Of a stretch of 64,000 bases of DNA, positions 57,939-60,064 are shown piece after piece. Position 1 is the stretch's first letter, and each line of letters begins with the position of its first letter. The position numbers and the translations under genes were made by a program. This DNA is from Candidatus Alistipes stercoravium (lineage in GTDB: Bacteria > Bacteroidota > Bacteroidia > Bacteroidales > Rikenellaceae). The notes below the pieces were generated by a model. It was not told where the DNA came from. It made no database searches and saw nothing but the letters and a program-made list of their open reading frames with translations. Where the stretch lies: assembly GCA_019119615.1 (NCBI GenBank), contig DWWQ01000011.1, positions 29,801-93,800 on the forward strand, read 5' to 3'.

Positions 57939-57995
57939 AAGAGGCGGCCCGCACGGACAACCAGCTCCCCCCAAAGAGGCGGCCCGCACGGACAA
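57938..57995 (+). repeat. 23-bp perfect direct repeat
   Basis: AAAGAGGCGGCCCGCACGGACAA at 57938-57960 and 57973-57995. Confidence 0.9.
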
Positions 57996-58042
57996 TGCAG
58001 CCGCGGCTCCGCGCCGCAGACAACCCCGAATACAAATGATGT

Positions 58043-58072
58043 GCGGCGGATCCTTCGGAAAGGATCCGCCGC
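58043..58072. terminator. 13-bp perfect inverted repeat between convergent genes
   Basis: GCGGCGGATCCTT-CGGA-AAGGATCCGCCGC; no long T-run. Confidence 0.55.
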
Positions 58073-58107: not shown

Positions 58108-59052
58108 TTATTCGCCCCGGTCGCAGCAGCTCTCCGCGGCCGTCTCGAATTCGAGCGTCGCATGCTCGATGCCTCCGGCACGGAGCTCCGCCTTGAGCGC
58201 CCGCTTGACCGGCTCGAGCTCTTCGAGACGCTGCAGGACGACATGGGCCGTCAGGGCGTTTTCCGTGGTGCTCATGGCCCACACATGCACATGGTGCACG
58301 GCCCGGACCCCCTCGACGGAGGCCATGCGGCGGGTGATCTCCGCAATGTCGAGCCCTGCGGGCACGCCGTCGAGCGACAGGCGCAGGCTGTCGCGCGTCA
58401 GCGACCAGACCGAGGCGACGATCACGGCGGCGACGGCCAGTCCGACCAGCGGGTCGATCAGCCGCCACCCGGTCCATGAGATGACAAGCCCCGAGACAAG
58501 CACGCCGACCGACACCAGCGCGTCGGCGGCCATATGGAGGTAGGCGCCACGGACATTGAGGTCGCGCGCGCGGTCCTTCATGAAGAGCCAGGCGGTAAAT
58601 CCGTTCACCGCGACGCCCACGCCGGCCGTCCAGGCGATTGCGCCGCCGGCCACCGTCTCGGGATGCAGCATGCGGCCGATGCTCTCGGCGATGATGACCC
58701 CCACGGCGATGAGCAGGATCACGGAGTTGAGCAGCGAGATGAGCACCGTGCTCTTGCGGAGCCCGTAGGTATAGCGTGGCGTGGCGCGCCGCTGCGCGAG
58801 GCGGAAGGCCAGCAGGGCCAGCAGCAGGCCCGCGACGTCCGAGAGGTTGTGCCCGGCGTCGGAGAGCAGCCCCATGGAGCCCTTGCAGAGCCCCACGACG
58901 AACTCCACGACGACAAACGCCACGTTGAGGGCGATACCCAGAAGGAAGGCGCGATTGAGCGACGAGATCCGGGGTGCATGGTGGTGATGGTGGTGATGGT
59001 GCGCAGCCTCTGCGGCGGATACCGGTGCCGCGCCTTCATGCGGAGTTTTCAT
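58108..59052 (-). CDS. cation diffusion facilitator family transporter
   Basis: HHHHHHHH N-terminus, GSMGLLSDAGHNLSDVAGLLLALLAFRLA, YLHMAADALVSVGVLVSG. Confidence 0.94.
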   Translation of the reverse strand: MKTPHEGAAPVSAAEAAHHHHHHHHAPRISSLNRAFLLGIALNVAFVVVEFVVGLCKGSMGLLSDAGHNLSDVAGLLLALLAFRLAQRRATPRYTYGLRKSTVLISLLNSVILLIAVGVIIAESIGRMLHPETVAGGAIAWTAGVGVAVNGFTAWLFMKDRARDLNVRGAYLHMAADALVSVGVLVSGLVISWTGWRLIDPLVGLAVAAVIVASVWSLTRDSLRLSLDGVPAGLDIAEITRRMASVEGVRAVHHVHVWAMSTTENALTAHVVLQRLEELEPVKRALKAELRAGGIEHATLEFETAAESCCDRGE

Positions 59053-59053
59053 G

Positions 59054-59986
59054 TCAGGCTTCGGCGCTTATGGAGTCCTTGATTTCGGAGAGTTCGACGA
59101 GTTTGTTCACGATGGCATAGATCGTCAGGCCCGCCGCGGAGTGTATCTGGAGCTTTGCGGCGATGTTGCGCCGGTGGGTGATGACCGTATGGGTCGAGAT
59201 GCAGAGCGCATCGGCGATCTGCTTGTTGGTCATGCCCTTCACCACGCAGACGATGATCTCGCGCTCGCGGGCGCTCAACGGTTCCTGCCGCTCGCCGCGC
59301 AGGCTGTCGGCCGCCAGCCGCTCAACGGCCGGGATGAAGAGGTCGTCCTCGACGGCGTTGTGCGAGGCGAGCTCCCGTTCGCAGGTGAAGATGTCGAAGA
59401 GCACGCCGTTCAGTTCGTTCGTGCTTCCCGAGGGGTAGTACTTGATGATGATGTTCTTCAGCTCGCGCAGCTTGGCGTCCACCTGGTCATGGCGGCGGCG
59501 GAAGTCGTCGATCGAGTAGCTGTCGCTCACGCGCCCTTCGAGCAGCCCCTCGACATAGGGGAAGACGGTCTGCTCCTCGTAGTCCATGTGGCGCTGCACC
59601 TCGGCGACATACTCGTCGAAGAAGCGCATGATGGCAAACGAGACGTCGTTGTGCGCATAGTCGATCGCCTCGATGAGCTTGCGCCGGATGGCCGGGAGGC
59701 GGAACTCCAGGAAGTATCCGTGCGAGTTGTGCAGGTAGTCGGTCAGGGCCCTCACGGAGAGCTCCGGCACGGAGTGTGCGCTGTGGTACGACCCGCCCAG
59801 CAGCATGTTCACCACGGCCAGGAAGGTCGCCGTATCGACGCGGTGCTCCTCGCAGACCTCGGCGATCGTCTTGTCGCCGAATCCCAGGGCGATGCCGAAG
59901 CGGCTCATCACCTGCAATACCGCAAAACGGTCGCTGACCAGATCGCACATCCGGTCGTCGCCCGTATATCCGCCGTTTTTATACAT
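59054..59986 (-). CDS. hemerythrin-domain / LuxR-type HTH transcriptional regulator
   Basis: ScdA_N-like FAVLQVMSRFGIALGFGDKTIAEVCEEHRVD; hemerythrin-like H-x-x-x-E and HMDYEEQTVFPYV, RRHDQVD, SHNAVEDDLFIPAV; LuxR LSAREREIIVCVVKGMTNKQIADALCISTHTVITHRRNIAAKLQ. Confidence 0.88.
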   Translation of the reverse strand: MYKNGGYTGDDRMCDLVSDRFAVLQVMSRFGIALGFGDKTIAEVCEEHRVDTATFLAVVNMLLGGSYHSAHSVPELSVRALTDYLHNSHGYFLEFRLPAIRRKLIEAIDYAHNDVSFAIMRFFDEYVAEVQRHMDYEEQTVFPYVEGLLEGRVSDSYSIDDFRRRHDQVDAKLRELKNIIIKYYPSGSTNELNGVLFDIFTCERELASHNAVEDDLFIPAVERLAADSLRGERQEPLSAREREIIVCVVKGMTNKQIADALCISTHTVITHRRNIAAKLQIHSAAGLTIYAIVNKLVELSEIKDSISAEA

Positions 59987-60013
59987 ATTTATAGGTATTT
60001 TTTGTTGTCGCTG

Positions 60014-60021
60014 CAAAAATA
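60014..60021 (-). promoter_or_regulatory. -7 promoter element TATTTTTG
   Basis: CAAAAATA on plus, 28 bp upstream of hemerythrin-LuxR ATG (59986). Confidence 0.55.
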
Positions 60022-60064
60022 GCGCCCCCCGCGCGAAGGATCAATACCCACAAAGGGGGATTTT

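Follow-up and report, generated by a model that had tools for sequence, protein, structure and literature searches.

The hemerythrin-CdhR system and the locus studied here

Among the Bacteroidales, the dominant Gram-negatives of the gut, the closest described system is the hemerythrin-CdhR operon, which is encoded as a split gene pair in Porphyromonas gingivalis (PG1236-PG1237) and Bacteroides thetaiotaomicron (BT0519-BT0520) and in fused form, as PIN17_RS10465, in Prevotella intermedia (PMC10434189). As that study already describes the fusion, the architecture itself is not new. In low iron the operon rises about 7-fold in P. gingivalis and 16- to 20-fold in B. thetaiotaomicron; the study calls the iron-sensing mechanism unclear and notes that iron binding by CdhR had not been demonstrated. 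Other genes respond to low iron as well (PMC10434189). In B. thetaiotaomicron, pflAB rises 2.6- to 8.3-fold and CcsA/ResB 2.3-fold, TonB/PepSY loci rise strongly, and the 5.9-fold change of feoB is not significant (P 0.25); in P. gingivalis, feoB2 rises 2.2-fold and a class I SAM methyltransferase 15.8-fold; in P. intermedia, a class I SAM methyltransferase rises 64-fold and a FeoB locus is also up. CusA/CzcA-type metal efflux systems are likewise elevated in low iron in B. thetaiotaomicron, with a counterpart in P. gingivalis (PMC10434189). Further, microaerophilic conditions bring cdhR down in P. gingivalis (PMC10101095), and CdhR is reported, in work cited by PMC9666725, as controlling hmuYR. 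The open-licence literature searched yielded neither an operator nor a feoAB link for hemerythrin-CdhR.

The locus compared here lies in a stretch of 64,000 nucleotides (the window) from Candidatus Alistipes stercoravium. The initial annotation had described a three-part protein of 310 aa, followed after 1 bp by a His-rich CDF transporter on the same strand. Both descriptions are confirmed: the regulator runs from an ATG at 59986 to 59054, with Pfam Hemerythrin and GerE matches and an N-terminal alignment to the RIC model, and a single base (59053) separates its stop from the ATG of the CDF gene. This spacing on a shared strand suggests that the two genes are probably co-transcribed. Kinship with CdhR, which the annotation had left open, is supported by the account of the system in PMC10434189 together with fused orthologues in Prevotellaceae, the named proteins being set beside ours by description. 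The genes and domains are as follows.

59986 to 59054, minus strand: fused regulator, 310 aa, ATG to stop (ScdA_N-like segment, hemerythrin-like domain and LuxR/GerE helix-turn-helix; from ORF, Pfam and TIGR03652)
59801..59953, minus strand: ScdA_N-like N-terminal segment, residues 12-62; LGFG replaces the RIC Cys pair; C45 invariant
59327..59743, minus strand: hemerythrin-like domain, residues 82-220; ligands H89, H133, E137, H166, H209 and E213
59114..59281, minus strand: GerE/NarL-type helix-turn-helix, residues 236-291 (PF00196)
59052 to 58108, minus strand: CDF exporter, 314 aa, ATG to stop (from ORF, Pfam and TIGRFAM)
58043..58072, no strand: hairpin 3' of the CDF stop, between the convergent CDF and yidD genes

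The hairpin is the likely end of the operon. Between it and yidD, at 57939-57996, lie two copies of a short direct repeat, aaagaggcggcccgcacggacaa. Nothing pointed to a connection with defence or phage functions.

Domain architecture and di-iron ligands of the regulator

The regulator, which is the only match to the Hemerythrin family in the source genome, is recognized above the Pfam cut-offs by Hemerythrin (PF01814; residues 82-220, E 3.6e-14) and GerE (PF00196; residues 236-291, E 6.3e-18). Pfam detects no ScdA_N domain in the N-terminus, no receiver domain in the fused protein, and no autoinducer-binding domain of the kind seen in AHL-binding LuxR proteins of quorum sensing. The relationship of the N-terminal part to the RIC proteins emerges from longer alignments: the RIC model TIGR03652 aligns with residues 15-219 over nearly its full length, though it scores 54 bits where the cut-off is 204.7, and a profile of the regulator family aligns with Staphylococcus aureus ScdA over the whole of the latter (E 2.3e-9). 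In these alignments the place of the RIC Cys pair is occupied by L34-G35-F36-G37, in agreement with the original remark that the pair is missing.

The same annotation had pointed to several conserved His and Glu residues, and these prove to be a complete RIC-type set: H89, H133, E137, H166, H209 and E213 are 100% conserved in an alignment of 96 fused and 15 split homologues, in which C45 is likewise invariant. Four His and two Glu are what we take to be the di-iron ligand pattern of YtfE and ScdA, so that the domain would be expected to bind metal. An AlphaFold model of the regulator (mean pLDDT 87) places H209 and E213 on one long helix, residues 190-230, that runs to the helix-turn-helix. 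Foldseek searches with this model ranked YtfE first and also matched ScdA and GerE-type domains; the E-values are weak (best 1.7e-3, none below 0.001), probably an effect of the fusion being matched in separate pieces.

Fused and split forms

Fused orthologues occur across Bacteroidales, including many Prevotellaceae. Other families and some Alistipes instead carry a split pair: first a gene for a hemerythrin protein (about 236 aa), then one for a LuxR protein (about 200 aa) whose receiver fold is devoid of the phosphorylation Asp (a pseudo-receiver). A single origin of the fusion was rejected (AU test, p 0.004): the fused proteins do not form one clade, and at least three changes between the forms are required. 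On these trees fusion may have happened more than once, though fissions are also possible; recurrent fusion, if this is the right reading, would be evidence that the two domains work jointly. One Alistipes locus (L090, 2805-5044) has split hemerythrin and LuxR genes followed by a CDF gene. It branches as the sister of the fused proteins of Alistipes, suggesting that the CDF link there may predate the fusion.

In two genomes, feoAB, a hemerythrin gene and a pseudo-receiver luxR gene stand in a row on one strand (G001:C22, L180 3618-7474; G015:C11, L181 3472-7622). These rows are apparent feoAB-HHE-luxR operons.

A predicted operator and its promoter geometry

Almost every Alistipes locus, and several distant and split loci too, has a 20-bp palindrome, AATMCC-N8-GGKATT, upstream of the regulator, mostly about 65-90 bp ahead of the conserved regulator start. 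This candidate operator was identified solely through its conservation. Read as TACC-N8-GGTA, it has what we take to be the 7-2-7 layout of NarL-like sites. It occurs 185 times in 121 genomes of the genus, versus 16 times for the reversed control. In the window the elements are these.

60043..60062, minus strand: predicted operator AATCCCCCTTTGTGGGTATT, 22.1 bits
60014..60021, minus strand: Bacteroidetes-type -7 element TATTTTTG, 21 bp after the predicted operator
59980..59999, minus strand: possible second site AATACCTATAAATATGTATA, 21.5 bits, overlapping the regulator start codon

For comparison, the best score in random 350-bp stretches has a 99th percentile of 6.9 bits. The right arm of AATACCTATAAATATGTATA is partly coding, and this site is therefore given low weight. 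An alternative TTG start at 60016 would fall inside the predicted -7 element, which makes ATG 59986 the likely start of the regulator. A sigma-70 promoter scan found nothing, as expected for Bacteroidetes promoters.

Among 65 regulator promoters, the end of the operator lies 20-22 bp ahead of the -7 element TAnnTTTG in 51, and exactly 21 bp ahead of it in 45, with a spacer of variable sequence. At this distance the right arm of the palindrome abuts or replaces the -33 element, and the placement is suggestive of a class-II activator. The composite motif of operator, spacing and TAnnTTTG has about 80 sites in 56 of the 121 genomes, while the control gave no matches.

Predicted targets and co-occurrence across the genus

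About 48 composite sites lie outside the regulator's own promoter, and about 39 of them precede feoAB or TonB receptors. By hand count they comprise about 23 at feoAB, 16 at TonB-dependent receptors, 2 at Ccs/ResB, 2 at porin genes, 1 at a lipoprotein gene and 4 unassigned. The prominence of iron-uptake genes behind the predicted operator across the genus suggests that what the regulator signals is probably iron shortage. The source genome has an exact composite site at the regulator-CDF promoter, and its other candidate targets are a lipoprotein-PepSY_TM operon, a SAM methyltransferase, zupT (2 mismatches) and pflB-pflA. A further candidate site lies between feoAB and an Hc1 histone-like gene at the break between contigs C12 and C20; because feoAB is cut by the contig end, this site is reconstructed from the nearly identical overlap of the two ends. 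The pflB site is present in all 8 genomes with both the fused regulator and pflB and absent from the 3 that lack the fused form. It departs from the 21-bp rule: in five loci it stands a further helical turn away, 31 bp (21+10) ahead of TAnnTTTG, and the remaining pflB sites have no clear -7 element, L116 and L185 (G000:C24) being among the pflB loci.

Several other neighborhoods deserve mention. At L241, L229 and L214 the operator lies between feoAB and a divergently oriented gene for an Hc1 histone H1-like protein. At L237, L196 and L220, in three species, the operator precedes a lipoprotein with a CTHxCxHG-like motif that matches no Pfam family, and at L237 this is followed by a PepSY_TM protein. 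Operator-like sites are also found near a gene for a putative cofactor-dependent phosphoglycerate mutase at L215 (G100) and L297 (G091; the same site is in G126).

The hemerythrin part of the regulator family is present in 87 of the 121 genomes. Composite sites occur in 55 of these 87, versus 1 of the 34 genomes devoid of the regulator (p 1.6e-10); with the regulator's own promoter set aside, the counts are 37 of 87 versus 1 of 34 (p 4.5e-6). The genomes are related, so that both p-values overstate independence. The single exception, G107 (85% complete), has a feoAB site and no regulator match. Conversely, 32 of the 87 regulator-bearing genomes have no exact composite site, and in several genomes feoAB is without a strong site.

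Such genomes, and the fact that the operator is known from conservation alone, would fit the view that the palindrome belongs to another iron regulator, of which the hemerythrin-LuxR gene is merely one target. We regard this as quite improbable. The dyad suits a NarL-type 7-2-7 binding mode and lies ahead of the regulator gene whether the lineage is fused or split, and genomes without the regulator have almost no composite sites. Canonical Fur is also scarce in the genus: Fur-family proteins are found in 18 of the 121 genomes and missing from 103; the source genome has one weak match. Binding of the palindrome by the hemerythrin-LuxR protein itself is the reading that we follow below.

The CDF exporter as a local addition

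The CDF protein matches Pfam Cation_efflux and ZT_dimer above cut-off and TIGR01297 with E 7e-73; the nearest equivalog is ZitB, with a score below its cut-off. It has a His-rich N-terminal stretch and two HxxxD motifs (HNLSD and HMAAD), which we take to be a Zn-type rather than an Fe-type combination. Of 34 Alistipes loci, 23 have the gene beside the regulator, L090 included, as against 0 of 46 loci of other Bacteroidales; the cultured A. montrealensis (L036) is among the Alistipes that carry it, whereas even the close relative L034 has no such link. A regulator-CDF pair conserved across Bacteroidales, which was considered, is accordingly rejected.

These observations bear on the initial idea of a di-iron sensor controlling metal efflux, and possibly the Mfa-type operon at 40-48 kb of the window. 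The sensor half of this idea is sustained by the presence of all six ligands in one protein with a DNA-binding domain, and a recurrent linkage to the CDF gene does exist within Alistipes. Efflux as the main function is not sustained, given the confinement of the link to that genus, the iron-uptake genes among the predicted targets and the Zn-type motif; nor is the fimbrial part, as no operator above 10 bits was found at 40-48 kb. A di-iron sensor dedicated to excess metal, which would turn on efflux by the CDF and perhaps Mfa-type fimbriae too, would account for the 1-bp gap, the shared promoter and the linkage retained in about two-thirds of the Alistipes loci. We nonetheless consider it very improbable, because the exporter adjoins none of the 46 orthologues from outside Alistipes, the motif is of the Zn type, the genes predicted to be co-regulated are importers rather than exporters, and the Mfa region has no operator.

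Control of efflux is better seen as a local add-on to an iron regulator, the CDF being of the Zn type and linked in only part of Alistipes. As it shares the predicted autoregulated promoter, the CDF should rise together with the iron importers. FeoAB and ZupT are able to carry other divalent metals, and a zinc exporter would correct the resulting load. The low-iron rise of CusA/CzcA-type efflux noted above may be a parallel for such a coupling.

Direction of the response and a model for iron sensing

The genes induced by low iron in the published experiments, which concern other genera, match the classes of predicted targets, which suggests that the regulator activates when iron is low. The nature of the signal can be conceived otherwise, with the same regulator and operator responding to O2, NO or redox stress at the di-iron site rather than to iron supply, and with the iron genes belonging to a stress or repair response. 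RIC, YtfE and ScdA relatives act in nitrosative and oxidative stress, and YtfE and ScdA are the nearest structures; moreover, pflB encodes an O2-sensitive glycyl-radical enzyme. The microaerophilic fall of cdhR in P. gingivalis points the same way (PMC10101095). Against this, iron importers dominate the predicted targets, the homologous operons rise under iron limitation (PMC10434189), and the Cys pair of RIC has been lost from the regulator family. A stress signal is on balance unlikely.

The regulator is probably a one-component di-iron activator of iron uptake that responds to iron status and belongs to the CdhR (hemerythrin-LuxR) family. Under this model, the RIC-derived four-helix domain would sense cellular iron directly, through gain or loss of its di-iron site, or alternatively by an indirect route through the redox or NO/O2 state of that domain. 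The state of the site would be passed along the long helix bearing H209 and E213 (residues 190-230 of the model) to the NarL-type helix-turn-helix. In iron starvation a dimer would bind the 20-bp dyad AATMCC-N8-GGKATT abutting the -33 region and activate transcription at promoters of the class-II type. Besides the regulator's own operon, the predicted regulon takes in feoAB, TonB-dependent receptors and further genes of the low-iron response; in the source genome zupT, the lipoprotein-PepSY operon and the SAM methyltransferase would join them, as would pflB, whose sites are spaced differently. Some Alistipes would have drawn the Zn-type exporter of the CDF family into this autoregulated operon, and its task would be to clear the cell of zinc, or of other divalent metals, let in by induced iron importers of relaxed specificity.

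More broadly, and only tentatively, with chances that we put a little under even, iron uptake in Alistipes and many other Bacteroidales may be governed mainly by hemerythrin-LuxR proteins as iron-responsive activators, which would do by activation what Fur does elsewhere: a di-iron fold would have become a transcription factor and been joined repeatedly to its DNA-binding partner, with a zinc exporter co-wired in some Alistipes. If true, a di-iron activator would be added to the few iron regulators of bacteria, in a genus mostly without Fur, and iron import and zinc removal would rise together in some Alistipes. With a specific operator, a rule for the promoter (operator + 21 bp + TAnnTTTG), a set of predicted targets and invariant ligands in hand, the question of iron sensing in these bacteria is now testable.

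Comparison with known systems

The regulator resembles the CdhR system in combining hemerythrin with a LuxR-type regulator, fused as in P. intermedia according to the published description; going by its predicted operators, it may likewise act on iron and heme uptake genes. It differs in that the gene of the window shares its operon with a CDF exporter and shows no link to mfa. Judged by the literature searched, what appears to be new is the operator with its promoter rule, the set of targets and the coupling to a CDF. With the RIC proteins YtfE and ScdA it shares the ScdA_N-like segment, the six di-iron ligands and an alignment over the full length of ScdA; however, it is without the Cys pair, possesses a DNA-binding domain and scores far below the RIC equivalog cut-off. 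The GerE helix-turn-helix and the 7-2-7 style dyad recall the NarL/FixJ response regulators, whose receiver fold is still kept in the split homologues. Yet the split partner is a pseudo-receiver devoid of the phospho-Asp, and in the fusion the di-iron domain replaces the receiver. An analogy may also be drawn with FBXL5, in which a hemerythrin-like di-iron domain reads cellular iron, although FBXL5 is a eukaryotic ubiquitin ligase that does not bind DNA. Finally, the exporter is akin to the ZitB/CzcD-type CDF zinc exporters in its Cation_efflux and ZT_dimer domains, His-rich N-terminus and HxxxD/HxxxD motifs, but falls below the ZitB equivalog cut-off and is apparently co-transcribed with an iron-type regulator.
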